From Methylomarinovum caldicuralii (GTDB lineage: Bacteria; Pseudomonadota; Gammaproteobacteria; Methylococcales; Methylothermaceae), in NCBI RefSeq assembly GCF_033126985.1, contig NZ_AP024714.1, positions 2,248,990-2,312,989 of the forward strand: a stretch of DNA of 64,000 bases. The letters run 5' to 3'. Made by a program: the position numbers and the translations under genes. Position 1 is the stretch's first letter. The number at the start of each line of letters is the position of its first letter. Under the pieces are notes generated by a model. It did no database searches. It was not told the DNA's origin and was given only the letters and a program-made list of their open reading frames with translations. This document shows, piece after piece, positions 1,886 through 19,365 of this stretch.

Positions 1886-3395
1886 GTTACCGTTCACGGG
1901 CTTGCCACTGGAAGTGGTTGAGGTTCCGGCAGGGGCAGGCGGAAGGTGACCTCGCCCTCTGCCATGCCCTGGGCGCAGATGGTCCGCAGGGTCTGATAGA
2001 CGCCGATCTTGAGGCGCTTGCAGGTTTCGACCAGCGACAGGATCATGGGGCGGAAGCAGTCACCGCCATGCGACTGGCTGAAGAAACTGGTCTTGCGCCA
2101 GATGACATAGGGGCGTAGGGCACGCTCTGCCGTGTTGTTGGTCATCGGTACCCCGGGATGGTCCAGGAAGGTCCAGAACCTGGGAAAATCGTCCAACAAC
2201 TTGCGGCAGCTGCGACCGGTTTTGTTGTCGCCATGTCTTTGGGCGGCCTGTTCCAGTTCGCGCCGGAAGAGGGCTTTGAGGCGTTCCAATCGCCTTCGGT
2301 AGCGGTCGGATGGGTAATGGCTCTGTTGCCAGAGCTTGCCGCAGTGAACCGTCAGGCGGGCGGCCCGGAGCAGGCGTTCGCCATCTTCGCCGGCCTGTCC
2401 CTTGCGCCCGGCGATCCGTTCCAGGTTGCGGATGAGATGCGCCCAGCAGTATTGGTGTGAGTCCTGGGGATGGTCGTTGTAGGCCCCGTGGCGGTCGGTC
2501 ACCAGGATTCCCTGGAAATCCCCCAACAGCTCACCGGCCGCACCCTTGCCGCGGGAATAATGGGTCAGGAAATACGCCATCTGATCGGTCGTCAGCGCCC
2601 ACAGCCAATAGATGCTGCGGCCCCGGTAGTGGCGGGTCTCGTCGGCATGGGCGATCAGCGCTTTTCTGACCGCCTCGCCAATCTGGTTGTAGACCGGACC
2701 CAGCCACGCCTGCAGCGGGATCTGGCTCTGGCTGATCGCCCCCAGGCTGAATTTCAGACCCCATTGTTCTTCCAGCAGCGCTTCGACTTCCCGCAGCGAC
2801 AGGTGATAGCGCCCCGTCATCAAGCCAATCCACGCCACCAGCCCAGGTCCCATCTGGCCGCGGGGCACCTCATCCGGTAGCCGCCCCTGGTGCTTCTGAC
2901 CACACCACCCACAGCGGCCTTCATACACCCGGTGTTCGACCACCCGGTAACGAATCTCGGGCAGGTCGAACACCTGATGGGGACGGAATCCCCGCACCGC
3001 CACCGACCCACCGCACTCGCAGCGGCCATGGGGAAAGTAATGCCGGACCTCGTCCACTGCTTCTGCCGGAACCAGAGCCCGCTCGTGCCCGGGATGTCCC
3101 ACCTGCGCCCCTTTCTTGCGTCCCGTCGGTCGCTTGCCCTTGCGCTCGGCGCGCTTCTTCGGGCTGTCCTGGGAAGGTGGTTGGGAGGAATTGTCGGACC
3201 CCAAGGCCAACTGTTCCTCCAGTTCTTCCACTCGCGCCTGGATCTGCTGAAATTCTCCCAGCGCCCGCCAAAGCGCTGCGATCACCCGGTGGCATTCCTC
3301 CACCGTCCCGGGCAAGGGAGGTGGGCGGCTCAGGTCCAGATCAAGTCTTTCCATGGCCCGCATTCTCCTGAATCTTCAGGCACTTGGCAAGACCG
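1886..3395 (-). mobile_element. IS66-family element, copy 1 (5' terminal repeat split by a group II intron)
   Basis: The outer end at 1886 reads GTTACCGTTCACGGGCTTGC, the 3'-side terminal inverted repeat. The other terminal repeat is interrupted after base 3395: its inner part remains, and its outermost 11 bp (TGAACGGTAAC) reappear at 6848-6858 beyond the intron. Without insertions the element would be about 1,521 bp. It carries a single transposase gene and no tnpA or tnpB helper genes, as in the ISBst12-like group of IS66. The flanks (GTTGTAAC on the left, TAGCCAAT on the right) are not a target duplication. Confidence 0.88.
1894..3354 (-). CDS. IS66-family transposase (copy 1, intact)
   Basis: DDE transposase of 486 residues. 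The N-terminal region (about 30-75) is a leucine-rich helix followed by SDNSSQPPSQDSPKK, typical of IS66. A cysteine pair region (CECGG then CGWCGQKH) is the IS66 zinc-finger block. The catalytic core shows HADETRHY, VTDRHGAYND and NNTAERALRPYV, the D, D and E motifs. The start at 3354 (MERLDLDL) is shared with copy 3; an upstream in-frame ATG at 3363 is possible. The stop codon lies inside the terminal repeat itself, so the protein ends PVASP. Copies 2 and 3, where an intron follows, end PVASPAG. Confidence 0.9.
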   Translation of the reverse strand: MERLDLDLSRPPPLPGTVEECHRVIAALWRALGEFQQIQARVEELEEQLALGSDNSSQPPSQDSPKKRAERKGKRPTGRKKGAQVGHPGHERALVPAEAVDEVRHYFPHGRCECGGSVAVRGFRPHQVFDLPEIRYRVVEHRVYEGRCGWCGQKHQGRLPDEVPRGQMGPGLVAWIGLMTGRYHLSLREVEALLEEQWGLKFSLGAISQSQIPLQAWLGPVYNQIGEAVRKALIAHADETRHYRGRSIYWLWALTTDQMAYFLTHYSRGKGAAGELLGDFQGILVTDRHGAYNDHPQDSHQYCWAHLIRNLERIAGRKGQAGEDGERLLRAARLTVHCGKLWQQSHYPSDRYRRRLERLKALFRRELEQAAQRHGDNKTGRSCRKLLDDFPRFWTFLDHPGVPMTNNTAERALRPYVIWRKTSFFSQSHGGDCFRPMILSLVETCKRLKIGVYQTLRTICAQGMAEGEVTFRLPLPEPQPLPVASP

Positions 3396-3475
3396 GCCGG
3401 GTGACCGCGGGCGATTGCTCACCCGCGGTTCCCACAGATCCGGACGTGCCCGATTAAGGCATCCGGCTCCTCGGA

Positions 3476-4789
3476 CTATGGCGTCGCTACGCAACGGGCA
3501 ATTCCGTGAACCACGCGCGGTGGGGGGAGTGGGTATCGTTTGTACAGCCGCCCAAAATGGTCCCAGTTCATCCGTTCCCGGTTGCGGCGGGACAACCATT
3601 TGTACCAGCGCCGTCTGACCTCGTACAGGAAGCGGGCCAGCGATTGGCTGTTGCCGACGATCCCATAGTAGGCATAATGCCCCTTGAGTTTGCGGCTCAG
3701 GGCCGCTTGTTGGTCTGCAACCGGCCAGTGGCGGTGCATCCGGCACCAGTGGTTGATCGCCTGCAGGGAGCGGCTGAGCCGGGCTTGGGCGGTCTTGCGT
3801 TTGACGACCCAACGCCCTTTCCCTGAGCGTCCCCAGTAGTGGGTGAATCCCGGGTATTGGAAGCTCTGGCCTTTCCGTCCGGGTTTTCTGAAGTCGAGCA
3901 GGCGGGTTTTGTCCGGGTGCAGGCGCAGGCCGTATTTGGCCAGGCGCTTGCCCGGAACGGCCAATACCCGCCGGGCGTCTTCTTCCCGTTCGAACACCAG
4001 GACCGCATCGTCGGCGAACCGGACTTCGAAGGCGCTGCCTTGCAGTCGCGGTTTGACCGTCTGCTCGAACCACAGGTCGAGCACGTGATGCAGGTAGAGG
4101 TTGGCCAGCAGTGGGGAGATCACCCCACCTTGCGGTGTCCCTTGTTCGGGGTAGTGAAGCTGTCCGCCTTCCATGACGCCGGCATTCAGCCATTTACCGA
4201 TCACGCGGCAGATCACGCCGTCGCGCACCCTCTGCCCCAGAAAGTTCCGCAGCCGGTCCCGGTCCACGTCGTCGAAGAAGTTTTGGATGTCCAGGTCGAT
4301 GACCCAGCCACCGCCCATGGCCATCAGCCCGCCCCATAGCCTCTCCAGGGCCTGGTGGGCACTGCGTCCGGGCCGGAACCCGTAGGCGCAGTCGAGAAAG
4401 TCCTGCTCGAAGATGGGTTCCAGCGCCATCAGCACCGCCCGTTGCAGCACCTTGTCTTCCAGCGTGGGAATGCCGATCGGGCGGGTCTTTCCCGTTCCCG
4501 GCTTGGGCAGGTGGACGCGCCGTACCGCAGGCGCCCGATACCGGCCGGTCTTGAACCGTTCCAGCAGGCGCGTCAGGTTCTCCTCTAAGGCGGCTGCGTA
4601 TTGGGATGCAGTCACGCCGTCCACCCCGGCGGCCCCGTCCTTGCGGGTGCGCCGCCAGGCTTCTTCCAGCCACACCACGTCGATGTGGTGGGCAATCGTG
4701 GTCAGTTCCAGCTTCGGTTCGATCCGGGCCAGTTCCACTAGCTTCCGTTGTCGTGTTGAGATGTTCTCCTGGCTCGATGTCCCGGCCAT
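3476..4789 (-). CDS. ltrA: Group II intron reverse transcriptase/maturase (copy 1)
   Basis: Intron-encoded protein of 437 residues, starting [10 protein letters not shown] behind GGAGG with 5-nt spacing; an ATG 21 nt upstream is less well placed. RT blocks in order: [59 protein letters not shown] and the active-site FADD (about 258-261). A basic maturase/thumb region follows. There is no HNH endonuclease domain after it, so target priming would have to use another route. The usually conserved LGF of RT block 7 reads YPGF here (proline at codon 3851-3853), a change that may reduce activity. It is an intron RT, not a retron or DGR RT: the context is a group II ribozyme. Confidence 0.88.
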   Translation of the reverse strand: MAGTSSQENISTRQRKLVELARIEPKLELTTIAHHIDVVWLEEAWRRTRKDGAAGVDGVTASQYAAALEENLTRLLERFKTGRYRAPAVRRVHLPKPGTGKTRPIGIPTLEDKVLQRAVLMALEPIFEQDFLDCAYGFRPGRSAHQALERLWGGLMAMGGGWVIDLDIQNFFDDVDRDRLRNFLGQRVRDGVICRVIGKWLNAGVMEGGQLHYPEQGTPQGGVISPLLANLYLHHVLDLWFEQTVKPRLQGSAFEVRFADDAVLVFEREEDARRVLAVPGKRLAKYGLRLHPDKTRLLDFRKPGRKGQSFQYPGFTHYWGRSGKGRWVVKRKTAQARLSRSLQAINHWCRMHRHWPVADQQAALSRKLKGHYAYYGIVGNSQSLARFLYEVRRRWYKWLSRRNRERMNWDHFGRLYKRYPLPPPRVVHGIARCVATP

Positions 4790-5200
4790 CTGTCCCTCCG
4801 AAAGCCCCATCGTCCGACCTGCCGCTTCCCTCCATCGGGTCCCTTGGGGCAGGTTCCCCGACTTCCCAGGTACTATCGGCAGGCTCCGATTGCTCGATCA
4901 CCTTCCCAGCGCGCTTCGTCGCCTTCGCGCGCCGGTACCCTGCTTCGTGTCCCGTTCGCTCCCATCGGCCGGACACCGCTCCGATGGGCCTGGGCCTTTT
5001 CTCACACGGCGCCCGCACCGCTCTTCCCGCAGGGAGTGTTCGAGCCCTCCCAGGTTCCTGGGCGACCCTTGCCCTGCATGCCCCGCTCTTCGACCCCGGC
5101 GGAGGGATGATGCCAGGCCAGTACAGCACCACCCCTGTTGCCTTCCGTCCGTTCAACAACGTCGGCTCCGCATTCCGTACTTTCGAGGCTCCATCACGCG

Positions 5201-5209
5201 GCCTACAGG
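5201..5209. repeat. Left 9-bp target-site duplication of IS4 copy 1
   Basis: GCCTACAGG here is repeated at 6666-6674 immediately outside the other IS4 end. A 9-bp duplication is what IS50-like IS4-family elements make. It shows that this IS4 jumped into an already resident group II intron. Confidence 0.9.
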
Positions 5210-6665
5210 CACCCTATTACCCGTATCTTCCCCCTTCTCATAGGAATCAATGTCTTATCCGTTTTCTCTGAGGGAACTTGATCTCGGCCGCCCGGATGGC
5301 GGTCACGGCCTCCACGTAGGCGCTCAGTTTGGTCATGCCCTGCCACAGGGCTTTGGGACCGGGCGGGGGATCGTTCTTGCGCCCCAGCCAGCCGCCAAAG
5401 CCGGCCACGATGCGGACGATGGTGCCCAAATCCGGCGGCGTCGCGGGCGGCGGGGTGCGATGGTGGATGGCCCAGGCGGTCTGCCATTCTTCGACAGAGA
5501 ACACCACTTCACAGCACCACTCGGGATGTTCCCGCCCGAGCGTCATCAGCATCAGGATGCGCCAGGCGACGATCAGATACAGCACCAGGGCCCGTTCCAG
5601 GCGTTCCCGGGTGCGAAGTTGCAGGGCTTCGATGCGGCAGCCGCTTTTGAGGATGCGGAAGTAGACCTCGATCCACCACCGTTTGCGGTACCATTCGATG
5701 CGCGCTCTGGCCTGTTCCAGGGTGGTGATTTCTTCGTTGGTGATCAGGCACCATTCGACCGCTTCCTGGCCTTCGGGGGGCGCCTCTTCCCGGGCCAGGA
5801 TGACGGTGACTTGGGGACCCGGGCCGCTTCGGGTCTTCAGTTCGACCCGGGCGAGCCGGATTGTTTGTGTGACCTGCCGGGCCGGGCGGTTGCCGCCGGC
5901 CGGCAGGTCAAAGGCGATCGTCCCCAACACCGGCTGGGCTTCGACCGCGGCCCGCAGTTTGCCATCGAGGGGGTCATTGAGCTTACGGTCGTGCTGCACC
6001 CGGATCAGGTAATCGGCGGCAAAGCCCAGCTGTTCGGCCCGGTCGATCAGGGCCCGAAGGTCACCTTCGCGGTCGGCGACATACACCAGCCGGGTCTCGG
6101 GCGCCAGGGCGGCCATCTCGGCCACCCGCTCATAACCTTCCACCCAACGCAGGCTTTCGGCCAGGTCCGGTTCCCCCTTGGGCAAACGCGCCCAGTGCCA
6201 GCAGTCGGTCACCCCCAGGGCCACGCCCGCCTCACTGATCACCAGCGTCGGATGCAGGTACAACCCCTGACGCTGCTCGTAATTCAGCCGTCCCAACCCC
6301 GCCATCGACGGCCGCCCGGAATAATCCAGCTCGGTGGTGTCCTGCAGGCACAGCACCCGCGACTGCTGCCGGATCCGTTCCAGGGTCGGCACACTGTGGG
6401 CCCGCAACACCTCCCGAAAATCCAGCCTGGCATTGTCCAGCAGCCGGTAGGCCGCCTTGGTCTCCGCCCAGCCACCCCCGCAAACGTTGGGAACGCTCGC
6501 CATCGGATCGTTTGCCATCGCTTCTATCACCCGGCACAGCCGCCGGTTCAGGCGGGCATCGCCCAGCGCCAGGGAAAAAATTCTTGTTCAGCCCAGCTCA
6601 TGTCAACGCCTATCCAAAGAAATCAATATCTTACTACAGGGGCGAGAGATGTGGGTAATAGGGTG
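5210..6665 (-). mobile_element. IS4-family (IS50-like) insertion sequence, copy 1, inserted in group II intron
   Basis: A 1,456-bp element. The ends are inverted repeats: CACCCTATTACCCGTATC at 5210, and its reverse-complement relative ending GGGTAATAGGGTG at 6665. A perfect 9-bp duplication flanks it (5201-5209, 6666-6674). One transposase gene occupies it. It splits intron copy 1 in the 5' ribozyme region. The insertion is the most recent event visible in this composite because its target duplication is still perfect. Confidence 0.92.
5247..6601 (-). CDS. IS4-family transposase, likely read through a -1 frameshift
   Basis: The main frame (from 6530 downwards) has the IS4 core: LQDTTELDYSG (first Asp), VADREGDLRALI (second Asp), and YRKRWWIEVYFRILK, which fits the Y-x2-R-x3-E-x6-K signature. 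The natural N-terminus (MSWAEQEFF, from an ATG at 6601) lies in another frame. Joining the two at the run of six T on the coding strand (6575-6580) by a -1 shift gives MSWAEQEFFSLALGDARLNR, which resembles IS50 transposase N-termini. Without the shift, the first start is the GTG at 6530 and about 24 residues are lost. The other copy has the same T run, so the shift is not a private error. Whether it is recoding or an inherited defect is open. Confidence 0.75.
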
Positions 6666-6873
6666 GCCTACAGGCCCCCTGTGTACGCTTCGCAGTCGGG
6701 ATCGCTCCTCGACCACGCAACACTCGGTTCCGGCTGGTGGCCAGCCTTGGCCGGACAGGACTTGCACCTGTCAGGTCGCTCTGAAGGTTTCAGCGATGTC
6801 TTTCCTTCTACATAACTTCCTCCTTCTCCAGGCTTGGCCTGGCGCAATGAACGGTAACTAGCCAATCACACTC

Positions 6874-6918
6874 TGACTGTGTGATATGACACAGTGATTG
6901 AGGCATATCACACAGTCA
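6874..6918. promoter_or_regulatory. 15-bp inverted repeat upstream of the TonB receptor gene
   Basis: TGACTGTGTGATATG (6874-6888) and CATATCACACAGTCA (6904-6918) are perfect reverse complements separated by 15 nt. They lie 113 bp before the receptor ATG at 7032, in an AT-rich gap just outside the IS66/intron composite. The size and symmetry suit a dimeric repressor or activator site. A TATATATGAT stretch at about 6991-7000 could supply a -10 element downstream. The ligand and regulator are unknown; copper control is only a guess from the gene it precedes. Confidence 0.55.
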
Positions 6919-7031
6919 AGAGGGCGATTTCAAATTCATTGGTTTCATGGTTCTTTCACTTCAAAGAGTTACTGTTATGGAACAGTATTCGCCTATATAT
7001 GATAGATGCTCTCAATTTTAAGGGAAATGCA

Positions 7032-9197
7032 ATGAATAAACTCAGCGTGTCTAAATTGCTTGCCGTCGCACTGGCCTCGCAGATTCATGGCGCGTGGGCT
7101 GAATACGAAGAGTTACCGACCCTGATTGTCGAAGGGGAAATCATGGAGCCTGGCACAGTTTCACTTCAGCCTGGAGCCGCGGGAGCACTGGATGCCGCCG
7201 AATTTCTCAACCATGTGCCCGGGGGCAATGTGAATCGTAATGGCCCTTTGACTGGAATTGCCCAGTTCCGGGGGCTATTTGGGGAAAGGGTCAACCTGCT
7301 TACCAACGGTATGGCATTAAAACCTGCTTGCACCAATGCCATGGATGATCCTGCAAGCCATATTCCATCTTCCTTGTTCCAGTCGATCACTGTATACCGG
7401 GAGGTGACCCCGGTCAGTACCGGATTGGAGACCATTGGCGGAACGGTCCAGATGAAATCCCGGGGAAGTGAATTCACCGATGAGGAAAAATTCAAGCTGC
7501 AGGGGTTCGGTAGTGCGGGTTACAGCGGTGTCAGCAATGGCCATTACGGCGCCGGCCTGCTGGGTGTGGCCAATCAGAATTTTCGCGCCCATTTCTCTGG
7601 CAGCGTTGAACGTGGACGGGATTACCGCTTCGACCGGACCCGCAGGGTCAATTCCACCAAATACAGCCGGGAAACCTATGAACTGGGTTTCGGCCTTCGT
7701 CGAGCCGGTCACGAATTCGGCTTTACCTACGACTATAAATACACAGGTCAATCGGGCACTCCGGCCTTGCCCATGGACATTCTTTTTGACCGGATGAACA
7801 TCTACCGCGGCGAGTATGAATGGAATATGGGCGGCGGCTGGAAACTGGCCTTCTTGGGCTTCTACCAAAATGCCAATCATGTCATGAACAACTTCAGCTC
7901 ACGGCCCGCGCCTGCCGACCGAGCGCGCTGGCGTGAAGCGGAAACCGAACTGGAGACCGGCGGTTATAAGTTTGCCGTCACCATACCAAGTGTGGGTCCC
8001 GGCAGTCTGGAAGTGGGTTTTGACGGGGATGTGGCGCTCCACAATGCAGTCATTCGCAATCCCAATAATGCTGCTTTTTTTGTCAGGAATTTTGAAGATG
8101 TCAACCGCAACCGCTATAGCGCTTATGCCGAATGGCGGGGTGAGCCGGTAGAGAAATTCACCGTGACCGCCGGCGTCCGTTACCGCTTTACCTATATGGA
8201 TGCCGGCAAGGTGGACGGTACCCCGGCGAAGAAAATACCGGCAGCCCGCGCGTTGGCGGATCGTTTCAATGCTTCCGACCGCCGACAGGACCAACACGAC
8301 GTGGATGTAGGGATGAACTTCCGCTATGCTGTCCAGGACAGTCTGGATTTGGTTCTCGGGTTGGCCCGCAAGACCATGGCGCCCACCTACCAGCAGCGCT
8401 ATACCTGGCTGCCCCTGGAATCCACAGGAGGTCTCGCGGATGGGCGGGTTTACATCGGCGATATCGGGTTGGACAGCGAGAAATCCTATGAGGCCGTGGC
8501 CGGATTCGATTTGCATCTGGATCATCTGGGAAGTTGGGTCCATGATCTTTACTTCGAGCCCCGGGGTTTCTATCGTTATATCAACGATTTCATCCAAGGC
8601 CAGCGGACCAACGACCCAACCGCTCTTGCAGCCGCCAATGCCATGTTGCCGGGCCGAACCTGTCCCAACGATCCCTCTCCCGGAGACAATGACGCCAGCG
8701 ACTGTGTCTTGCAGTGGACCAATGTCGATGTCCAACTATATGGTGCCGATATCCGGGCAGGTCTGGCCATGGGAGATTACTTTCGCCTGGATGGCCTGCT
8801 GAATTATACCCGCGGCCAAAAGCTCAGTGGCAAGGATGATAATTTGTACCGTATCGCCCCTCTCAATGGACGGATCAGAGGCACCTTTTCCTGGCGGGAT
8901 TTCGCCTTTTCCACCGAGCTGGTGGGCGCGCTGCGCCAAGACAAGGTGGCCGACTACAACAAGGAACGGAAAAGTTCCGACTGGAGTGTGTTGAACCTGC
9001 GTCTGCAATATCAACCGAGCTATCGCTATATCCAAGGTCTTAAAATTGCTCTCGGGGTGGATAATGTTTTCGACAACGAACACACCAATCATCTTAACGG
9101 CCTCAACCGCGTCCGGGGCACCCGCGATCTGCCGGTGGGTTCAAGGGTTCCGAATCCCGGCCGCAATCTCTACGCGAACCTGACTTACGATTTCTGA
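7032..9197 (+). CDS. TonB-dependent outer-membrane receptor, OprC/NosA copper type
   Basis: Outer-membrane active transporter of 721 residues with a signal peptide (MNKLSVSKLLAVALASQIHG, cut after AWA). Plug-domain features follow (FLNHVPGGNVNRNGP, IAQFRGLFGERVNLL), and the end is a C-terminal beta-strand in aromatic F (YANLTYDF). Residues C100 and M104 form CTNAM, and H283-V-M285 forms HVM. The pairing CxxxM plus HxM is the reported copper site of Pseudomonas OprC, so copper uptake is a good inference. The ATG at 7032 is preferred over an upstream in-frame ATG because the signal peptide starts there. It stands alone, with its own terminator, between two mobile composites. Its base composition is visibly lower in GC than the housekeeping region. 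Confidence 0.82.
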   Translation: MNKLSVSKLLAVALASQIHGAWAEYEELPTLIVEGEIMEPGTVSLQPGAAGALDAAEFLNHVPGGNVNRNGPLTGIAQFRGLFGERVNLLTNGMALKPACTNAMDDPASHIPSSLFQSITVYREVTPVSTGLETIGGTVQMKSRGSEFTDEEKFKLQGFGSAGYSGVSNGHYGAGLLGVANQNFRAHFSGSVERGRDYRFDRTRRVNSTKYSRETYELGFGLRRAGHEFGFTYDYKYTGQSGTPALPMDILFDRMNIYRGEYEWNMGGGWKLAFLGFYQNANHVMNNFSSRPAPADRARWREAETELETGGYKFAVTIPSVGPGSLEVGFDGDVALHNAVIRNPNNAAFFVRNFEDVNRNRYSAYAEWRGEPVEKFTVTAGVRYRFTYMDAGKVDGTPAKKIPAARALADRFNASDRRQDQHDVDVGMNFRYAVQDSLDLVLGLARKTMAPTYQQRYTWLPLESTGGLADGRVYIGDIGLDSEKSYEAVAGFDLHLDHLGSWVHDLYFEPRGFYRYINDFIQGQRTNDPTALAAANAMLPGRTCPNDPSPGDNDASDCVLQWTNVDVQLYGADIRAGLAMGDYFRLDGLLNYTRGQKLSGKDDNLYRIAPLNGRIRGTFSWRDFAFSTELVGALRQDKVADYNKERKSSDWSVLNLRLQYQPSYRYIQGLKIALGVDNVFDNEHTNHLNGLNRVRGTRDLPVGSRVPNPGRNLYANLTYDF

Positions 9198-9225
9198 TTC
9201 GGGAATGTGATAATTCACTTTTCAT

Positions 9226-9250
9226 GCGCGCCCTAGGGCGCGCTTTTTTT
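9226..9250 (+). terminator. Rho-independent terminator of the TonB receptor gene
   Basis: A self-complementary stem GCGCGCCCTAGGGCGCGC followed by seven T, 28 bp after the receptor stop codon. A group II intron 5' end begins 4 nt after the T run. Confidence 0.93.
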
Positions 9251-9254
9251 CTAT

Positions 9255-9369
9255 GTGCGCCCGGCATGGGCGCACCCCTGCGGGTGGAAGTCCCGCCACG
9301 AGCCGGTCACGGCGAGTGAAGCGAAGCACAACTGCGGAAGGGTGACCGACCGTGGGGGGGAAGCGTGGG
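9255..9369 (+). mobile_element. 5' stump of a second, different group II intron
   Basis: Starts GTGCGCCCGGCATGGGCGCA, which matches the GUGYG 5' consensus of group II introns and forms the usual first hairpin. It continues with GGTGGAAGTCCCGCCACGAG and an AGTGAAGCGAAGC stretch, like bacterial intron domain I. It sits directly behind an intrinsic terminator, the known preferred target of class C introns. Only about 115 bp remain; the rest is replaced by tandem repeats. It is not a copy of the 1,987-bp intron elsewhere in the window. The right boundary is approximate. Confidence 0.65.
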
Positions 9370-9461
9370 CGCACAAAAGGGGTCACAACGCACAAAAGGG
9401 GTCACAACGCACAAAAGGGGTCACAACGCACAAAAGGGGTCACAACGCACAAAAGGGGTCA
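9370..9461. repeat. 19-bp tandem repeat, four full units and a partial fifth
   Basis: The unit CGCACAAAAGGGGTCACAA repeats head to tail at 9370, 9389, 9408, 9427 and 9446 (partial). It then runs into GGTCAGGTCTTGCAATCCTGC. Because 19 is not a multiple of three, it gives open frames in all three phases with repetitive peptides, which I do not treat as genes. Nothing else is seen up to the IS4 end at 9550. Confidence 0.9.
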
Positions 9462-9549
9462 GGTCTTGCAATCCTGCAAAATCCCATGCTTGCAATATGA
9501 CAAGGCCGAGGGGCAGGTATGGCCTCAGGTGTTCGCTTAGATGTCAAGG

Positions 9550-10472
9550 CACCCTATTACCCACATCTTCCCCCTTCTCATAGGAATCAATGTCTTATCC
9601 GTTTTCTCTGAGGGAACTTGATCTCGGCCGCCCGGATGGCGGTCACGGCCTCCACGTAGGCGCTCAGTTTGGTCATGCCCTGCCACAGGGCGGCCGGGTG
9701 GGGGATCGTTCTTGCGCCCCAGCCAGCCGCCAAAGCCGGCCACGATGCGGACGATGGTGCCCAAATCCGGCGGCGTCGCGGGCGGCGGGGTGCGATGGTG
9801 GATGGCCCAGGCGGTCTGCCATTCTTCGACAGAGAACACCACTTCACAGCACCACTCGGGATGTTCCCGCCCGAGCGTCATCAGCATCAGGATGCGCCAG
9901 GCGACGATCAGATAAAGCACCAGGGCCCGTTCCAGGCGTTCCCGGGTGCGAAGTTGCAGGGCTTCGATGCGGCAGCCGCTTTTGAGGATGCGGAAGTAGA
10001 CCTCGATCCACCAGCGTTTGCGGTACCATTCGATGCGCGCTCTGGCCTGTTCCAGGGTGGTGATTTCTTCGTTGGTGATCAGACACCATTCGACCGCTTC
10101 CTGGCCTTCGGGGGGCGCCTCTTCCCGGGCCAGGATGACGGTGACTTGGGGACCCGGGCCGCTGCGGGTCTTCAGTTCGACCCGGGCGAGCCGGATTGTT
10201 TGTGTGACCTGCCGGGCCGGGCGGTTGCCGCCGGCCGGCAGGTCAAAGGCGATCGTCCCCAACACCGGCTGGGCTTCGACCGCGGCCCGCAGTTTGCCAT
10301 CGAGAGGGTCGTTGAGCTTACGGTCGTGCTGCACCCGGATCAGGTAATCGGCGGCAAAGCCCAGCTGTTCGGCCCGGTCGATCAGGGCCCGAAGGTCACC
10401 TTCGCGGTCGGCGACATACACCAGCCGGGTCTCGGGCGCCAGGGCGGCCATCTCGGCCACCCGCTCATAACC
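9550..10472 (-). pseudogene. IS4-family element copy 2, left part with transposase C-terminal half
   Basis: Begins with the IS4 terminal repeat CACCCTATTACCCACATC. It carries the C-terminal half of the transposase, including VADREGDLRALI and the YRKRWWIEVYFRILK signature. It stops at 10472, where the IS66/intron composite begins. Relative to copy 1 there is a net 5-bp deletion near 9690 (within GGCGGCCGGGTGGGGG), which shifts the frame before the C-terminus. The flank outside 9550 (ATGTCAAGG) does not match the flank beyond the other end (GCTGGTAAG), so there is no target duplication. Confidence 0.9.
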
Positions 10473-10483
10473 GTTACCGTTCA
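10473..10483. other. Outermost 11 bp of IS66 terminal repeat, acting as 5' exon of intron copy 2
   Basis: GTTACCGTTCA is the same as the first 11 bp of the IS66 end at 1886. Its last 7 nt, CCGTTCA, are complementary to TGAACGG inside the intron (10711-10717). The mirror-image piece TGAACGGTAAC is at 15959-15969. Together they are the detached tips of IS66 copy 2. Confidence 0.85.
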
Positions 10484-11076
10484 TTGCGCCAGGCCAAGCC
10501 TGGAGAAGGAGGAAGTTATGTAGAAGGAAAGACATCGCTGAAACCTTCAGAGCGACCTGACAGGTGCAAGTCCTGTCCGGCCAAGGCTGGCCACCAGCCG
10601 GAACCGAGTGTTGCGTGGTCGAGGAGCGATCCCGACTGCGAAGCGTACACAGGGGGCCTGTAGGCCGCGTGATGGAGCCTCGAAAGTACGGAATGCGGAG
10701 CCGACGTTGTTGAACGGACGGAAGGCAACAGGGGTGGTGCTGTACTGGCCTGGCATCATCCCTCCGCCGGGGTCGAAGAGCGGGGCATGCAGGGCAAGGG
10801 TCGCCCAGGAACCTGGGAGGGCTCGATCACTCCTTGCGGGAAGAGCGGTGCGGGCGCCGTGTGAGAAAAGGCCCAGGCCCATCGGAGCGGTGTCCGGCCG
10901 ATGGGAGCGAACGGGACACGAAGCAGGGTACCGGCGCGCGAAGGCGACGAAGCGCGCTGGGAAGGTGATCGAGCAATCGGAGCCTGCCGATAGTACCTGG
11001 GAAGTCGGGGAACCTGCCCCAAGGGACCCGATGGAGGGAAGCGGCAGGTCGGACGATGGGGCTTTCGGAGGGACAG

Positions 11077-12390
11077 ATGGCCGGGACATCGAGCCAGGAG
11101 AACATCTCAACACGACAACGGAAGCTAGCGGAACTGGCCCGGATCGAACCGAAGCTGGAACTGACCACGATTGCCCACCACATCGACGTGGTGTGGCTGG
11201 AAGAAGCCTGGCGGCGCACCCGCAAGGACGGGGCCGCCGGGGTGGACGGCGTGACTGCATCCCAATACGCAGCCGACTTAGAGGAGAACCTGACGCGCCT
11301 GCTGGAACGGTTCAAGACCGGCCGGTATCGGGCGCCTGCGGTACGGCGCGTCCACCTGCCCAAGCCGGGAACGGGAAAGACCCGCCCGATCGGCATTCCC
11401 ACGCTGGAAGACAAGGTGCTGCAACGGGCGGTGCTGATGGCGCTGGAACCCATCTTCGAGCAGGACTTTCTCGACTGCGCCTACGGGTTCCGGCCCGGAC
11501 GCAGTGCCCACCAGGCCCTGGAGAGGCTATGGGGCGGGCTGATGGCCATGGGCGGTGGCTGGGTCATCGACCTGGACATCCAAAACTTCTTCGACGACGT
11601 GGACCGGGACCGGCTGCGGAACTTTCTGGGGCAGAGGGTGCGCGACGGCGTGATCTGCCGCGCGATTGGTAAATGGCTGAATGCCGGTGTCATGGAAGGC
11701 GGACAGCTTCACTACCCCGAACAAGGGACACCGCAAGGTGGGGTGATCTCCCCACTGCTGGCCAACCTCTACCTGCATCACGTGCTCGACCTGTGGTTCG
11801 AGCAGACGGTCAAACCGCGACTGCAAGGCAGCGCCTTCGAAGTCCGGTTCGCCGACGATGCGGTCCTGGTGTTCAAACGGGAAGAAGACGCCCGGCGGGT
11901 ATTGGCCGTTCCGGGCAAGCGCCTGGCCAAATACGGCCTGCGCCTGCACCCGGACAAAACCCGCCTGCTCGACTTCAGAAAACCCGGACGGAAAGGCCAG
12001 AGCTTCCAATACCCGGGATTCACCCACTACTGGGGACGCTCAGGGAAAGGGCGTTGGGTCGTCAAACGCAAGACCGCCCAAGCCCGGCTCAGCCGCTCCC
12101 TGCAGGCGATCAACCACTGGTGCCGGATGCACCGCCACTGGCCGGTTGCAGACCAACAAGCGGCCCTGAGCCGCAAACTCAAGGGGCATTATGCCTACTA
12201 TGGGATCGTCGGCAACAGCCAATCGCTGGCCCGCTTCCTGTACGAGGTCAGACGGCGCTGGTACAAATGGTTGTCCCGCCGCAACCGGGAACGGATGAAC
12301 TGGGACCATTTTGGGCGGCTGTACAAACGATACCCACTCCCCCCACCGCGCGTGGTTCACGGAATTGCCCGTTGCGTAGCGACGCCATAG
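11077..12390 (+). CDS. ltrA: Group II intron reverse transcriptase/maturase (copy 2)
   Basis: Full-length 437-residue RT/maturase with the same blocks as copy 1 ([36 protein letters not shown]) and an uninterrupted frame. It differs from copies 1 and 3 at KLAELAR (KLVELAR there) and at QYAADLEEN (AAALEEN there), both shared with copy 4. It has alanine in CRAIGKW. Like copies 1 and 3 it has YPGF instead of the usual YLGF at RT block 7. The start has GGAGG at 5-nt spacing. Confidence 0.88.
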   Translation: MAGTSSQENISTRQRKLAELARIEPKLELTTIAHHIDVVWLEEAWRRTRKDGAAGVDGVTASQYAADLEENLTRLLERFKTGRYRAPAVRRVHLPKPGTGKTRPIGIPTLEDKVLQRAVLMALEPIFEQDFLDCAYGFRPGRSAHQALERLWGGLMAMGGGWVIDLDIQNFFDDVDRDRLRNFLGQRVRDGVICRAIGKWLNAGVMEGGQLHYPEQGTPQGGVISPLLANLYLHHVLDLWFEQTVKPRLQGSAFEVRFADDAVLVFKREEDARRVLAVPGKRLAKYGLRLHPDKTRLLDFRKPGRKGQSFQYPGFTHYWGRSGKGRWVVKRKTAQARLSRSLQAINHWCRMHRHWPVADQQAALSRKLKGHYAYYGIVGNSQSLARFLYEVRRRWYKWLSRRNRERMNWDHFGRLYKRYPLPPPRVVHGIARCVATP

Positions 12391-12396
12391 TCCGAG

Positions 12397-12470
12397 GAGC
12401 CGGATGCCTTAATCGGGCACGTCCGGATCTGTGGGAACCGCGGGTGAGCAATCGCCCGCGGTCACCCGGC
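12397..12470 (+). ncRNA. Group II intron domains V and VI (copy 2)
   Basis: Domain V is the 34-nt hairpin 12397-12430, beginning with the catalytic AGC triad (GAGCCGGATG) and closing with CACGTCCGGATCT. Domain VI follows (12431-12470): a CCGCGGG/CCCGCGG stem with an internal UCA bulge. The adenosine at 12464 is 7 nt from the 3' end at 12470, where the branch point is expected. The same block occurs in the other three intron copies. Confidence 0.82.
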
Positions 12471-13929
12471 CGGGCTTGCCACTGGAAGTGGTTGAGGTTC
12501 CGGCAGGGGCAGGCGGAAGGTGACCTCGCCCTCTGCCATGCCCTGGGCGCAGATGGTCCGCAGGGTCTGATAGACGCCGATCTTGAGGCGCTTGCAGGTT
12601 TCGACCAGCGACAGGATCATGGGTCGGAAGCAGTCACCGCGATGCGACTGGCTGAAGAAACTGGGTCTTGCGCCAGATGACATAGGGGCGTAGGGCACGC
12701 TCTGCCGTGTTGTTGGTCATCGGTACGCCGGGATGGTCCAGGAAGGTCCAGAACCTGGGAAAATCGTCCAACAACTTGCGGCAGCTGCGACCGGTTTTGT
12801 TGTCGCCATGTCTTTGGGCGGCCTGTTCCAGTTCGCGCCGGAAGAGGGCTTTGAGGCGTTCCAATCGCCTTCGGTAGCGGTCGGATGGGTAATGGCTCTG
12901 TTGCCAGAGCTTGCCGTAGTGAACCGTCAGGCGGGCGGCCCGGAGCAGGCGTTCGCCATCTTCGCCGGCCTGTCCCTTGCGCCCGGCGATCCGTTCCAGG
13001 TTGCGGATGAGATGCGCCCAGCAGTATTGGTGTGAGTCCTGGGGATGGTCGTTGTAGGCCCCGTGGCGGTCGGTCACCAGGATTCCCTGGAAATCCCCCA
13101 ACAGCTCACCGGCCGCACCCTTGCCGCGGGAATAATGGGTCAGGAAATACGCCATCTGATCGGTCGTCAGCGCCCACAGCCAATAGATGCTGCGGCCCCG
13201 GTAGTGGCGGGTCTCGTCGGCATGGGCGATCAGCGCTTTTCTGACCGCCTCGCCAATCTGGTTGTAGACCGGACCCAGCCACGCCTGCAGCGGGATCTGG
13301 CTCTGGCTGATCGCCCCCAGGCTGAATTTCAGACCCCATTGTTCTTCCAGCAGCGCTTCGACTTCCCGCAGCGACAGGTGATAGCGCCCCGTCATCAAGC
13401 CAATCCACGCCACCAGCCCAGGTCCCATCTGGCCGCGGGGCACCTCATCCGGTAGCCGCCCCTGGTGCTTCTCACCACAACACCCACAGCGGCCTTCATA
13501 CACCCGGTGTTCGACCACCCGGTAACGAATCTCGGGCAGGTCGAACACCTGATGGGGACGGAATCCCCGCACCGCCACCGACCCACCGCACTCGCAGCGG
13601 CCATGGGGAAAGTAATGCCGGACCTCGTCCACTGCTTCTGCCGGAACCAGAGCCCGCTCGTGCCCGGGATGTCCCACCTGCGCCCCTTTCTTGCGTCCCG
13701 TCGGTCGCTTGCCCTTGCGCTCGGCGCGCTTCTTCGGGCTGTCCTGGGAAGGTGGTTGGGAGGAATTGTCGGACCCCAAGGCCAACTGTTCCTCCAGTTC
13801 TTCCACCCGCGCCTGGATCTGCTGAAATTCTCCCAGCGCCCGCCAAAGCGCTTCGATCACCCGGTGGCATTCCTCCACCGTCTCGGGCAAGGGAGGTGGG
13901 CGGCTCAGGTCCAGATCAAGTCTTTCCAT
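12462..13929 (-). pseudogene. IS66-family transposase, copy 2, frameshifted
   Basis: Same protein as copies 1 and 3 from MERLDLDL (start 13929) up to YVIWRKT. One extra G near 12664 (CTGGGTCTTG against CTGGTCTTG) then throws the last 60 or so codons out of frame. The displaced C-terminus (FFSQSHRGDCFRPMILS) is still readable in the next frame to 12462. The catalytic D, D and E motifs lie before the shift, but the conserved C-terminal block is lost. Confidence 0.88.
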
Positions 13930-13970
13930 GGCCCGCATTCTCCTGAATCTTCAGGCACTTGGCAAGACCG
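12471..13970 (-). mobile_element. IS66-family element, copy 2, with an intron in each terminal repeat
   Basis: The internal 1,500 bp of the element lie between intron copy 2 (plus strand) and intron copy 3 (minus strand). Both introns point their 3' ends inwards. The inner parts of both terminal repeats remain (CGGGCTTGCC on the left, GGCAAGACCG on the right), and the outer 11-bp tips lie at 10473-10483 and 15959-15969. The whole composite (10473-15969) replaced 47 bp of IS4 copy 2. Confidence 0.9.
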
Positions 13971-15958
13971 GCCGGGTGACCGCGGGCGATTGCTCACCCG
14001 CGGTTCCCACAGATCCGGACGTGCCCGATTAAGGCATCCGGCTCCTCGGACTATGGCGTCGCTACGCAACGGGCAATTCCGTGAACCACGCGCGGTGGGG
14101 GGAGTGGGTATCGTTTGTACAGCCGCCCAAAATGGTCCCAGTTCATCCGTTCCCGGTTGCGGCGGGACAACCATTTGTACCAGCGCCGTCTGACCTCGTA
14201 CAGGAAGCGGGCCAGCGATTGGCTGTTGCCGACGATCCCATAGTAGGCATAATGCCCCTTGAGTTTGCGGCTCAGGGCCGCTTGTTGGTCTGCAACCGGC
14301 CAGTGGCGGTGCATCCGGCACCAGTGGTTGATCGCCTGCAGGGAGCGGCTGAGCCGGGCTTGGGCGGTCTTGCGTTTGACGACCCAACGCCCTTTCCCTT
14401 GAGCGTCCCCAGTAGTGGGTGAATCCCGGGTATTGGAAGCTCTGGCCTTTCCGTCCGGGTTTTCTGAAGTCGAGCAGGCGGGTTTTGTCCGGGTGCAGGC
14501 GCAGGCCGTATTTGGCCAGGCGCTTGCCCAGAACGGCCAATACCCGCCGGGCGTCTTCTTCCCGTTTGAACACCAGGACCGCATCGTCGGCGAACCGGAC
14601 TTCGAAGGCGCTGCCTTGCAGTCGCGGTTTGACCGTCTGCTCGAACCACAGGTCGAGCACGTGATGCAGGTAGAGGTTGGCCAGCAGTGGGGAGATCACC
14701 CCACCTTGCGGTGTCCCTTGTTCGGGGTAGTGAAGCTGTCCGCCTTCCATGACACCGGCATTCAGCCATTTACCGATCACGCGGCAGATCACGCCGTCGC
14801 GCACCCTCTGCCCCAGAAAGTTCCGCAGCCGGTCCCGGTCCACATCGTCGAAGAAGTTTTGGATGTCCAGGTCGATGACCCAGCCACCGCCCATGGCCAT
14901 CAGCCCGCCCCATAGCCTCTCCAGGGCCTGGTGGGCACTGCGTCCGGGCCGGAACCCGTAGGCGCAGTCGAGAAAGTCCTGCTCGAAGATGGGTTCCAGC
15001 GCCATCAGCACCGCCCGTTGCAGCACCTTGTCTTCCAGCGTGGGAATGCCGATCGGGCGGGTCTTTCCCGTTCCCGGCTTGGGCAGGTGGACGCGCCGTA
15101 CCGCAGGCGCCCGATACCGGCCGGTCTTGAACCGTTCCAGCAGGCGCGTCAGGTTCTCCTCTAAGGCGGCTGCGTATTGGGATGCAGTCACGCCGTCCAC
15201 CCCGGCGGCCCCGTCCTTGCGGGTGCGCCGCCAGGCTTCTTCCAGCCACACCACGTCGATGTGGTGGGCAATCGTGGTCAGTTCCAGCTTCGGTTCGATC
15301 CGGGCCAGTTCCACTAGCTTCCGTTGTCGTGTTGAGATGTTCTCCTGGCTCGATGTCCCGGCCATCTGTCCCTCCGAAAGCCCCATCGTCCGACCTGCCG
15401 CTTCCCTCCATCGGGTCCCTTGGGGCAGGTTCCCCGACTTCCCAGGTACTATCGGCAGGCTCCGATTGCTCGATCACCTTCCCAGCGCGCTTCGTCGCCT
15501 TCGCGCGCCGGTACCCTGCTTCGTGTCCCGTTCGCTCCCATCGGCCGGACACCGCTCCGATGGGCCTGGGCCTTTTCTCACACGGCGCCCGCACCGCTCT
15601 TCCCGCAAGGAGTGATCGAGCCCTCCCAGGTTCCTGGGCGACCCTTGCCCTGCATGCCCCGCTCTTCGACCCCGGCGGAGGGATGATGCCAGGCCAGTAC
15701 AGCACCACCCCTGTTGCCTTCCGTCCGTTCAACAACGTCGGCTCCGCATTCCGTACTTTCGAGGCTCCATCACGCGGCCTACAGGCCCCCTGTGTACGCT
15801 TCGCAGTCGGGATCGCTCCTCGACCACGCAACACTCGGTTCCGGCTGGTGGCCAGCCTTGGCCGGACAGGACTTGCACCTGTCAGGTCGCTCTGAAGGTT
15901 TCAGCGATGTCTTTCCTTCTACATAACTTCCTCCTTCTCCAGGCTTGGCCTGGCGCAA
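13971..15958 (-). mobile_element. Group II intron, copy 3, in the 5'-side IS66 terminal repeat
   Basis: Minus-strand copy, 1,988 bp (one base longer than the others because of an insertion in the RT gene). The 5' end TTGCGCC is at 15958 and the 3' end at 13971 joins GGCAAGACCG of IS66. It is the mirror image of copy 2 around the IS66. Ribozyme parts look intact at both ends. Confidence 0.88.
14051..15365 (-). pseudogene. ltrA: Group II intron reverse transcriptase/maturase (copy 3), frameshifted
   Basis: All RT blocks through FADDAVLVF and [11 protein letters not shown] are in frame. One extra T near 14399 (CCCTTTCCCTTGAG against CCCTTTCCCTGAG) then shifts the maturase region into another frame. 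It shares KLVELAR and AAALEEN with copy 1, so these two 5'-side copies are closest relatives in the N-terminal part. Confidence 0.88.
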
Positions 15959-15969
15959 TGAACGGTAAC

Positions 15970-16450
15970 AACGCGCCCAGTGCCAGCAGTCGGTCACCCC
16001 CAGGGCCACGCCCGCCTCACTGATCACCAGCGTCGGATGCAGGTACAACCCCTGACGCTGCTCGTAATTCAGCCGTCCCAACCCCGCCATCGACGGCCGC
16101 CCGGAATAATCCAGCTCGGTGGTGTCCTGCAGGCACAGCACCCGCGACTGCTGCCGGATCCGTTCCAGGGTCGGCACACTGTGGGCCCGCAACACCTCCC
16201 GAAAATCCAGCCTGGCATTGTCCAGCAGCCGGTAGGCCGCCTTGGTCTCCGCCCAGCCACCCCCGCAGACGTTGGGAACGCTCGCCATCGGATCGCTTGC
16301 CATCGCTTCTATCACCCGGCACAGCCGCCGGTTCAGGCGGGCATCGCCCAGCGCCAGGGAAAAAATTCTTGTTCAGCCCAGCTCATGTCAACGCCTATCC
16401 AAAGAAATCAATATCTTACTACAGGGGCGAGAGATGTGGGTAATAGGGTG
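15970..16450 (-). pseudogene. IS4-family element copy 2, right part with transposase N-terminal half
   Basis: Continues IS4 copy 2 after the composite: the N-terminal half of the transposase (VPNVCGGGWAETKAAYRL, LQDTTELDY) and the terminal repeat ending GGGTAATAGGGTG at 16450. Comparison with copy 1 shows that 47 bp (equivalent to 6138-6184) are missing between the two halves. The same six-T frameshift site near the start codon is present. Confidence 0.9.
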
Positions 16451-16561
16451 GCTGGTAAGCATACGGCACCGATGCCTGTCAGCTATCCTGACCGGTAGAG
16501 GTATTCTCATGCCACGTTTAAGATAACAGGCACAAAACACATCTATATTCCCAAAACCCTC

Positions 16562-16672
16562 CCTCAAAACTGGATTCCGCATCCTCCGATCCCGGGGAAA
16601 CGATCAGAAAATCTTGCCAAACGAACCTTCCAAGAGTAACCTCAGCCCAAGGATAGATCGGAAAGTGGCGTT
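16562..16672. repeat. 111-bp direct repeat, copy A, upstream of the first PEP-CTERM gene
   Basis: Identical to 19255-19365 (constant offset 2,693). It lies in the 314-bp gap between IS4 copy 2 and the gene at 16765. Both copies stand upstream of a PEP-CTERM protein gene, and both are followed by GAATTTCCTATCCAT: directly here, after 175 extra bp in copy B. The rest of the gap (16451-16561) holds no gene I can see. Confidence 0.9.
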
Positions 16673-16764
16673 GAATTTCCTATCCATCTTCTGTAACCTG
16701 GCCGTCATTTTCCGGCCATAGAATCGCCGCACTCACCAACTAACCAAGACGCACGGAGAGGGGA

Positions 16765-18351
16765 ATGAACAGATACATTCATAGGGTGTTGCCGGGTGCC
16801 GCGTTTGCATTGGCATTGGGTATCGGCAGCGCCAATGGGGCGCCGGTCCTCGAGTTCTCTCAGGAATGGAGCCAGTCGGGTGCAGGGTCCGAGATCGTGG
16901 CCATCGATACGGCATCGAATCGGGTGTTCAGCACCTTTTCCGGCGGGGTGGAGATCAGAGACCTGTTTACCGGCAATCTGATCGGCACCCTGACGGTACC
17001 CGATAGCAGCACCGTCAACAGCGTCGCCGTCAAGAATGGCATTGTGGCCATTGCTGCACAGGGAGCAGGCGGCAAGCAGGATATTGGCAAGGTGGCCTTC
17101 TTCAATACCACTGACGCTCCGGGCAGTGCGCCGATCAAGACGGTGAATACGGGCTACCTGCCGGACATGGTCACCTTCACCCCCGATGGCAAAAAGGTAC
17201 TGGTCGCCAACGAGGGCGAGCCCAGTGATGCCTACGACAATGATCCTGAAGGTTCGATCACCATCATCGACCTGTCCGGTGGCGTAGGCAGTGCGACGGC
17301 GACCCAGCTGGACTTTCATGCCTTCGATGGTGGGGAAGCCGCCATCGAGGCTGACGGGGGTCGGATCTTCGGTCCTGGTGCCAGTGTCTCTCAAGACCTG
17401 GAACCCGAGTACATCGCGGTCTCCCCGGACGGGAAGACGGCCTTCGTCACCCTGCAGGAGAACAACGCGGTTGCCAAGGTCGATCTCACCACCAACACCA
17501 TCAGCGAGATCCAGGGCCTGGGCTTCAAGGACCACAGCCAACCCGGCAACGAAATCGATGCATCCAACAAGGATGGGATCGATGGCAATCTGCAGAATTG
17601 GCCGGTGCTCGGGATGTATCAGCCGGACGGCATCGCGAGCTATGAAGTCGATGGCAAGCGTTACTACGTTACCGCCAATGAAGGCGATGCCCGTGACTAT
17701 GGCGGCTATTCGGAAGAGACCCGGGTGAAAAAACTGACCCTGGACCGGGACGACGACGGGAATCCCGACGCCTTCAGTCCTCTGCAGGATGACGACCAGC
17801 TTGGGCGGCTGAAGATCACCATCGCCAATGGCGATATCGATGGCGACGGCATGTACGAGCAGATCTACAGCTATGGCGCGCGTTCGATGTCCATCTGGGA
17901 CGAAGACGGTAACCTGGTATCCGATACGGGTGACACCGTCGAGCGCATGATTGCCACCCTCTTTCCCGATCAATGGGTGGACAGCCGCTCCGACGACAAG
18001 GGTCCGGAACCCGAAAGCGTCGAGCTGATCGAGATCGACGGCTGGACCTATGCGCTGGTAGGTATGGAGCGCACCAATGGTCTGATGCTGTTCGATATCA
18101 CCGATCCCACCAGCCCGATGTATATGGACTACTTCTTCAATGCGGGTGACATTGGCCCAGAGGGTCTGGATTTCGTCGCGGTGCAGGCAACCTCTACCTC
18201 GTCTTCGATGGCTTGGGGATGGTTGGCCGTGGGTAACGAGGTATCGAATACCACCACCCTGTATCGGGTCAGCCGCGTACCGGAGGCGGGCACCCTCGCC
18301 TTGATGGGGCTTGGCCTGGGGCTTATAGGGCTGGGTCGGCGGCGCGCCTGA
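16765..18351 (+). CDS. Exported PEP-CTERM protein with choice-of-anchor I (beta-propeller, phosphatase-like) domain
   Basis: A 528-residue secreted protein. It has a signal peptide (residues 1-25, ending ANG-A). A long beta-propeller-like region follows with repeats such as TFTPDGKKVLVANEGEPS, AVSPDGKTAFVTLQENNAVAKV and YVTANEGDARDY, the hallmark of the choice-of-anchor I family often annotated as alkaline phosphatase-like or phytase-like. The C-terminus VPEAGTLALMGLGLGLIGLG followed by RRRA is a PEP-CTERM sorting signal, recognised by exosortase and cleaved by archaeosortase-type enzymes. The start at 16765 follows GGAGAGGGGA. Many Asp-rich loops (DRDDDGNPDA, DIDGDGMYEQ) suggest calcium binding. 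Enzyme activity is not shown by any motif. Confidence 0.82.
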   Translation: MNRYIHRVLPGAAFALALGIGSANGAPVLEFSQEWSQSGAGSEIVAIDTASNRVFSTFSGGVEIRDLFTGNLIGTLTVPDSSTVNSVAVKNGIVAIAAQGAGGKQDIGKVAFFNTTDAPGSAPIKTVNTGYLPDMVTFTPDGKKVLVANEGEPSDAYDNDPEGSITIIDLSGGVGSATATQLDFHAFDGGEAAIEADGGRIFGPGASVSQDLEPEYIAVSPDGKTAFVTLQENNAVAKVDLTTNTISEIQGLGFKDHSQPGNEIDASNKDGIDGNLQNWPVLGMYQPDGIASYEVDGKRYYVTANEGDARDYGGYSEETRVKKLTLDRDDDGNPDAFSPLQDDDQLGRLKITIANGDIDGDGMYEQIYSYGARSMSIWDEDGNLVSDTGDTVERMIATLFPDQWVDSRSDDKGPEPESVELIEIDGWTYALVGMERTNGLMLFDITDPTSPMYMDYFFNAGDIGPEGLDFVAVQATSTSSSMAWGWLAVGNEVSNTTTLYRVSRVPEAGTLALMGLGLGLIGLGRRRA

Positions 18352-18474
18352 GTACGGCGGAAAAACTCTCACCGCAAAGGACGCAAAGGACCGCAAAGGG
18401 AAGAAAGGCAAGGACAGATCGCCAGGATGCCCCTTTGCTGTTGTTTGGGGGCGCCTCCTGGCGATCCCTCGTAG

Positions 18475-18501
18475 GGTGGGTTTCGCTCTGCGAAACCCAC
18501 C
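18475..18501. repeat. REP-like hairpin, possible terminator
   Basis: GGTGGGTTTCGC-TCT-GCGAAACCCACC is a perfect 12-bp stem with a 3-nt loop. It lies between the PEP-CTERM gene and the convergent pdxA fragment. The surrounding gap (18352-18565) also has short CGCAAAGGA repeats (18380-18410). Such palindromes are commonly repeated in proteobacterial intergenic DNA. Confidence 0.6.
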
Positions 18502-18565
18502 GCCAAGCGACGACAGGGCCGATGGGTCCCTCAAAGCGCGACGCTTTCCGTCCGCTTTCCTGTAA

Positions 18566-19144: not shown

Positions 19145-19254
19145 CTATCCATCGACTGCGCGGACTTTGTAAAAGAAAATGGAAATGTCTTTAAACATTA
19201 CATTGCGATCTATGTACTCGTATTGACTGCCGGTTCCCTTTGGGGCAATACGTG

Positions 19255-19365
19255 CCTCAAAACTGGATTCCGCATCCTCCGATCCCGGGGAAACGATCAG
19301 AAAATCTTGCCAAACGAACCTTCCAAGAGTAACCTCAGCCCAAGGATAGATCGGAAAGTGGCGTT
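19255..19365. repeat. 111-bp direct repeat, copy B, upstream of the second PEP-CTERM gene
   Basis: Identical to 16562-16672. Copy B lies in the 553-bp gap between the pdxA fragment and the gene at 19698. The first part of the gap (19145-19254) is AT-rich DNA with no gene or feature I recognise. Confidence 0.9.

Follow-up and report, generated by a model that had tools for sequence, protein, structure and literature searches.

A predicted OprC-like copper receptor on a mobile island of Methylomarinovum caldicuralii, its resident Gly-form relative and a candidate common sigma54 switch

The closest described counterpart of the receptor considered here is OprC of Pseudomonas aeruginosa, or NosA, a receptor for ionic copper. 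According to the portion of the OprC report drawn on here (PMC8610252), the protein binds free copper ions, and its mutant C143A bound no Cu(II) and gave silver peaks the same as those of wild type, from which its authors inferred that the binding of Cu(I) was still possible. CrtA (BfrG) of Bordetella pertussis is likewise a copper TonB-dependent transporter, and in the relevant part of the account of it (PMC12914433) it imports chelated Cu(II) and its gene is often followed by one for a PepSY_TM protein. For methane oxidisers there is Methylococcus capsulatus Bath, in which, as the pertinent sections of PMC4831470 have it, copper limitation draws a joint response from TonB genes (with the receptor MCA0440), multihaem cytochromes and putative sigma54 promoters. 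A methanotroph that has pMMO only depends on copper, and import of copper across the outer membrane of such species, together with the switch that controls it, is poorly known.

Methylomarinovum caldicuralii is a heat-loving, marine, methane-eating bacterium. Table 1 of PMC10950024, the part of that paper relied on here, gives pMMO and no sMMO for strain IT-9. The host genome (one contig of 2,694,844 bases) has two pmoA, which bears out the methanotroph-like host supposed in an earlier, sequence-only reading of the DNA. The window, by which is meant the whole stretch of 64,000 nucleotides analysed, holds an intact gene for a TonB-dependent receptor within an accessory island (Table 1). The boundaries of the island come from the sister-species genome G005, whose locus L131 aligns to window positions 1-1885 and then runs straight on from 25574, so that about 23.7 kb including the receptor gene is absent there; that genome carries a Gly-form receptor copy only. 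As for the ends, a 534-bp direct repeat (1352-1885 and 25574-26107, 99.8% identical) bounds the island, and a single stretch of L131 (3542-4075) matches both copies. The sequence-only reading had the gene standing between mobile composites, and Tn5/IS4-like and IS66 transposases and a reverse transcriptase do flank it; a match to group II intron RNA lies at 6626-6764 on the minus strand (Rfam group-II-D1D4-6, 62.7 bits, gathering score 49), and near-identical copies of the mobile neighbours occur further right in the window. Also encoded within the island, at 16765-21990, are two proteins with PEP-CTERM matches (one of them a choice-of-anchor I protein), a TPR protein and a fragment of pdxA.

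Table 1. Features of the receptor gene and its island, in window coordinates
Feature	Position	Strand	Remarks
Accessory island, about 23.7 kb	1886..25573		Absent at the syntenic place in sister-species genome G005
IS66-family transposase	1897..3363	-	DDE_Tnp_IS66
Probable group II intron reverse transcriptase	3479..4810	-	RVT_1
Tn5/IS4-like transposase left of receptor gene	5250..6530	-	DDE_Tnp_1, Dimer_Tnp_Tn5, Tnp_DNA_bind
Two tandem 16-bp palindromic sites, predicted activator-binding	6878-6893, 6899-6914		21 bp start to start; score 31/32, reached by 0/200 shuffles
Sigma54-type -24/-12 promoter candidate, GG-N10-GC	6978..6993	+	10/12 scored positions; shuffle P 0.045 taken alone
TonB-dependent receptor, Cys form (OprC-like), 721 aa	7032..9197	+	Intact ORF, ATG at 7032, stop ending 9197
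Intrinsic-terminator-like stem and T-run	9226..9250	+	Stem 9226-9243: 7 G-C pairs round a 4-nt loop; followed by TTTTTTT
Piece of second Tn5/IS4-like transposase right of receptor	9540..10535	-	98% identical repeat of 5207-6137

Where did the receptor gene come from? Its GC content was said to be lower than that of its surroundings, and it is 55.4% (GC3 62.0) against 64.3% for the window, the resident paralogue having 63.6% (GC3 87.2). Its closest relative, L076 of genome G018 (89% protein identity), is at home in DNA of lower GC, the gene having 53.2% and its flanks 53.3%, and over the 4.6 kb compared DNA similarity to that locus is confined to 7027-9219 and the palindrome at 6878-6915. The offset, the setting of the relative and the restriction of similarity to gene and palindrome together fit transfer from a lower-GC relative. 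With the empty site in G005 and the patchy presence of the Cys form (3 of the 12 receptor copies in the genus), the earlier proposal of transferred accessory cargo gains support. As to vehicles, the 14 pattern matches among viral contigs included no relative of the receptor, and the 40 plasmid records found at E≤1e-30 were all less than 60% identical to it, the best having 31.6%; a contig search gave, besides the host, one relative, L003 (the same contig as G042:C259).

The receptor has a recognisable Plug domain (PF07715, 32.4 bits, cut-off 23.9) and with it belongs to the TonB-dependent receptor superfamily. Two motifs, C100-x3-M104 (CTNAM) and H283-x-M285 (HVM), had been singled out as mirroring the copper site of OprC; both are where they were said to be, each is the sole CxxxM or HxM of the protein, and C100, M104, H283 and M285 align with C143, M147, H323 and M325 of OprC. 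Being in register, they represent a homologous site. In a single-sequence search with the window protein, OprC was the only match among solved structures (sequences of 6 entries, best E 8e-24), and its CPNRM fell on CTNAM; a family profile of 53 rows, from which L042 was excluded for its unknown residues, matched OprC over positions 23-692 of 692 (E 2e-53), with H323 and M325 on the invariant H-x-M of the family; its matches to haem, colicin I and enterobactin receptors were much weaker. The curated model that scored best was the copper receptor equivalog TIGR01778, yet at 149.2 bits it is below the cut-off of 472.45. AlphaFold2 run from a 2-row alignment (window protein and L003 protein) gave a mean pLDDT of 28.1, not a usable model, and so it is from homology that contact of the four residues in space is argued. 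They are the predicted copper ligands. That the receptor is of a copper type, as first proposed, is supported by the full-length homology, by the register of the ligands and by copper-linked genes near some relatives: CopC and PepSY_TM genes beside L078, and a gene for a protein with HMA and DsbD_2 domains beside L043.

The host has a second such receptor, at 1320794-1322968, 63% identical to the first, that keeps M, H and M and has Gly in place of Cys. A match at E≤1e-30 was present in 88 of the 201 genomes sampled from the order. The 76 distinct proteins compared were of at least 550 aa, matches shorter than that and identical ends having been dropped and 20 regions from weaker matches, plus L087 and L091, taken in; 54, the window's among them, are of the receptor's own family and 22 are of OprC type. 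M104, H283 and M285 are invariant in all 76, while position 100 has Cys in 36 (including every OprC-type protein) and Gly in 40. From other orders of the class, 45 matches gave 30 loci, three of which proved to be of the window's own order; in the remaining 27 (L135-L161) the same three residues are again invariant, with Cys in 6 and Gly in 21. In trees of the barrel the window gene groups with L076 and L078 in a starred clade that is nested among Gly genes and has L077, a Gly gene, as sister, and a plug tree made without the motif columns agrees in grouping the window gene with the genus's own genes. By parsimony, then, the Cys would have been regained, after its loss, in this three-gene clade; over 80 sequences at least 6 changes between Cys and Gly are needed, two of them forced by starred branches. 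Exchange of the whole plug as the source of the Cys is unsupported, given where the motif-free plug tree puts the window gene; transfer of the short Cys motif by itself is a possible source. Among Cys receptors of other families, L041, L043, L054 and L091 are near a gene for a Crp-like regulator (L043 by Pfam, the rest by eye), and L037, L040, L044, L046 and L092 are near ExbB/ExbD genes (L037 by Pfam, the rest by eye).

What the two receptor genes of the host have in common lies upstream. The sequence-only reading had given the island gene its own regulatory palindrome and terminator; the terminator-like stem with its T-run is there, and the palindrome, at 6874-6918, can be refined to two tandem sites. 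Tandem 16-bp palindromes, 20 or 21 bp apart, are upstream of all 12 receptor copies in the genus with scores of 30-32 of 32, unreached in every case by 200 shuffles per sequence, albeit with a score drawn up from the same sequences, for which reason scanning the genome is the better test. In the host genome the exact pattern is present at 3 places, with none for the reversed-pattern control: before both receptor genes, and 5' of a pseudopilin-like gene. Allowing up to 3 mismatches adds one place, 0.7 kb from the third, and the reversed control then also has one. All 10 genus genomes have the exact pattern, at 21 places in total against one for the control, and 11 of the 21 belong to receptor genes (the receptor site of G022 being off by one base). 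The remaining ten, some of them identified by eye, comprise 3 with pseudopilin-like genes, 3 with a DsbD_2-type gene (tested with Pfam at L108), 2 with FG-GAP-type proteins (tested with Pfam at L125), 1 with a flagellin-like gene and 1 unassigned; the FG-GAP place other than L125 faces a multihaem-cytochrome-like gene, and such a gene adjoins the tandem site in G030. The third host site (L100 8097-8129, i.e., G000:C1:2394096-2394128) precedes a pseudopilin-like gene at 8381-9262 that has a prepilin-like start by eye, no Pfam match and a sigma54-like element, TGGCAC-N8-GC; pseudopilin-like genes with a tandem site are found also in G022 and G012. At L108, 42-437 encodes a Met/His-rich protein of 131 aa without a Pfam match, which faces the DsbD_2 gene across the tandem site and toward which a sigma54-like element points. 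An Rfam match of the palindrome to mir-5 was rejected, its 22.6 bits being far below the gathering score of 75.

All 12 receptor genes of the genus are preceded by a GG-N10-GC element that has 9 or more of the 12 scored positions, which gene by gene is weak evidence (shuffle P 0.005 to 0.295). The weakest score is that of L082, whose chosen start is probably too far upstream; a better element seems, by eye, to be downstream of it. The host genome has a match to the rpoN (sigma54) family. Outside the genus, 10 of the 11 Cys forms of Methylococcales are without a tandem site above shuffles, and L092 has the site and no sigma54 element. Gly genes of family f6 without a tandem site above shuffles are L015, L017-L019, L021, L023, L025-L027, L029, L031, L036, L039 and L042; mostly, as judged by eye, they have another palindrome upstream, of the kind TGCGACAATTTGTCGCA, and this difference suggests a different regulator for them.

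What might act at these sites? Divergent from the resident Gly receptor gene is one for a single protein of 562 aa that combines DsbD_2 (166.6 bits), PF00158 (234.9 bits) and PF02954 (57.8 bits); with the AAA+ domain, the Fis-type HTH and a GAFTGA loop read in activator translations, it has the features of NtrC-type activators of sigma54. All 9 Gly copies of the genus have DsbD_2 and activator linked to them and none of the 3 Cys copies has; each of the 10 genomes carries an orthologue of the activator, which in G038 is split across two contig ends. In L086, L088, L089, L047 and L049 the two kinds of domain are in neighbouring genes. Of nine loci outside the genus with linked DsbD_2 and activator, 6 have a tandem site (P≤0.05) and 5 of them a sigma54 element too; the pairing is thus looser than in the genus, for L086, L030 and L053 have the linkage but not the tandem site, and L045 and L048 have both upstream elements with no linked activator within 4-5 kb upstream. 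From this pattern of co-occurrence the DsbD_2-sigma54 fusion is a candidate for the activator that would bind the tandem sites. G026 is instructive here. In it pyrF adjoins the activator gene, and the receptor and tandem site are missing at the core locus (a draft of 120 contigs, 98% complete, in which gaps are possible); the sole copy of the family found is a Cys form elsewhere in the genome, with tandem sites and a sigma54-like promoter. With the activator kept and the Cys copy elsewhere, the Gly form may have its place taken by the Cys form in this genome, and the activator, if acting, would do so in trans.

The scheme that we put forward, and judge as a whole to be probable, is that the mobile island has added an OprC-like, Cys-form copper receptor to the resident Gly-form one. 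Copper would reach a site to which the plug contributes C100 and M104 and the barrel H283 and M285, and would be moved on by TonB energy into the periplasm, for use by pMMO and oxidases. Expression would be from the sigma54 promoter, switched on via the tandem palindromes by a membrane-bound DsbD_2-sigma54 fusion protein, encoded beside the resident receptor, and most likely under copper scarcity. The clusters of M. capsulatus that respond to copper limitation and have putative sigma54 promoters, as set out in the sections of PMC4831470 referred to above, make a copper-famine sigma54 regulon plausible.

What would a second receptor add? Given that C143A of OprC loses Cu(II) and keeps Ag(I), the prediction by analogy is that Gly forms, with M-H-M only, accept Cu(I) alone and that Cys forms accept either ion, Cu(II) or Cu(I). 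A plainer account, that the island copy is just a second dose of the resident receptor and that Cys or Gly alters neither ligand nor valence, we think somewhat unlikely: the common upstream elements suggest the same regulation, and the Cys form that is the sole family copy found in G026 may simply replace a Gly form, but position 100 is strictly two-state (Cys or Gly in 103 sequences, the window's included), Pro101 goes with Gly in 59 of 60, at least five genomes carry both forms together, and in OprC, by the portion of PMC8610252 already cited, it is the Cys that decides Cu(II) binding. Do Gly forms make good the missing ligand? Within Methylococcales an extra Met (M108 or M281) is present in 32 of 39 Gly forms and in 0 of 14 Cys forms, the Gly form has more Met than the Cys form in all 5 genome pairs looked at, and Met content differs between the forms (p 9e-7, uncorrected for relatedness); in the host, where a track of Met toward the site would be a mark of the OprC type, the counts in sequence are 14 for the window receptor and 24 for its paralogue. 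Outside the order, the extra Met is in 0 of 21 Gly forms and the difference in content has p 0.32, which rules out compensating Met as a general rule for Gly forms. With these hints stopping at the border of the order, it is chiefly the OprC mutant on which the predicted valence difference depends. A Trp at position 103 or 284, in 12 of 60 Gly and 0 of 20 Cys forms (p 0.03, uncorrected), is a lead only.

Distinctly unlikely, in our estimation, is that the receptor imports chelated copper, as a chalkophore or other small-molecule complex in the manner of CrtA or MbnT, with the four residues as an inner filter. The Cys receptor gene of G026 has as neighbours genes for PepSY-like (below Pfam cut-offs), PepSY_TM and CopC proteins, and the association of PepSY_TM with crtA, as well as the import of chelated Cu(II) by its product, would agree with such a role; against it, CrtA proteins are reported, in the relevant part of PMC12914433, to be without conserved Cys or Met, unlike the family of the window receptor, and OprC, the closest solved relative, binds free ions. 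Very improbable is a gene in decay, carried as a passenger and caught between mobile elements: the island is rich in repeats and has a broken transposase copy, but the reading frame is full, dN/dS against L076 is 0.036 (with dS near saturation), and tandem sites, promoter candidate and terminator-like stem are kept. That the ligand is another metal or compound, such as zinc (as for ZnuD) or haem, is hardly to be expected. In its favour are weak local matches to the relevant models, at 29.7 bits for the ZnuD model NF038289 (cut-off 950) and 82 for the haem receptor family (cut-off 316.85), both far too low; against it, OprC is the only solved relative matched over full length, and copper genes adjoin the relatives L078 and L043.

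The sequence-only reading was right in its main points; what is added to a copper-type receptor on an island is the resident Gly form, the Cys regained by parsimony and a common switch with a candidate membrane-bound activator. From this come two candidate receptors, a pair within a single cultured strain; the hypothesis that one residue, at a position switched several times in evolution, governs the choice of copper valence; and a defined promoter for which a membrane-bound sigma54 protein is the candidate copper sensor. A bolder version is tentative, and we would call it possible rather than probable: that in a gammaproteobacterial family of copper receptors the one residue toggles, over evolution, a receptor between Cu(II) plus Cu(I) and Cu(I) only, and that in Methylothermaceae the toggled, laterally moved copy joins the copper-famine regulon of a copper-sensing, membrane-bound, one-component regulator, its DsbD_2 part metal-transporter-like and fused to a sigma54 activator, whose reach extends to a multihaem cytochrome, other DsbD_2 proteins and operons of the pseudopilin-like kind. 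Among the matches listed in a search of the open-access literature, seen as titles and the starts of abstracts, no description of the DsbD_2-sigma54 fusion or of the Gly form was found.

How, finally, does the locus stand beside the described systems? With OprC and NosA it shares profile homology over the full length, four ligands in the same order and, after the H-x-M, an NF-x-LR or similar stretch. It differs in having no more than about 24-29% identity with OprC-type proteins from the same order, in falling below the TIGR01778 cut-off and, with respect to OprC as treated in the cited portion of PMC8610252, in that its family has a majority Gly form and, in some members, a linked pair of DsbD_2 and sigma54 activator. 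With CrtA it shares the character of a copper TonB-dependent transporter, here as predicted, and the proximity of PepSY_TM genes, here in the relative L078; unlike CrtA, as characterised in the part of PMC12914433 drawn on, its family has M104 and M285 invariant. The likeness to the copper-limited clusters of M. capsulatus Bath is in the multihaem-cytochrome-like gene that adjoins the tandem site in G030, and the unlikeness, relative to those clusters as described in the sections of PMC4831470 used, is in the DsbD_2-sigma54 activator and the tandem site found here.
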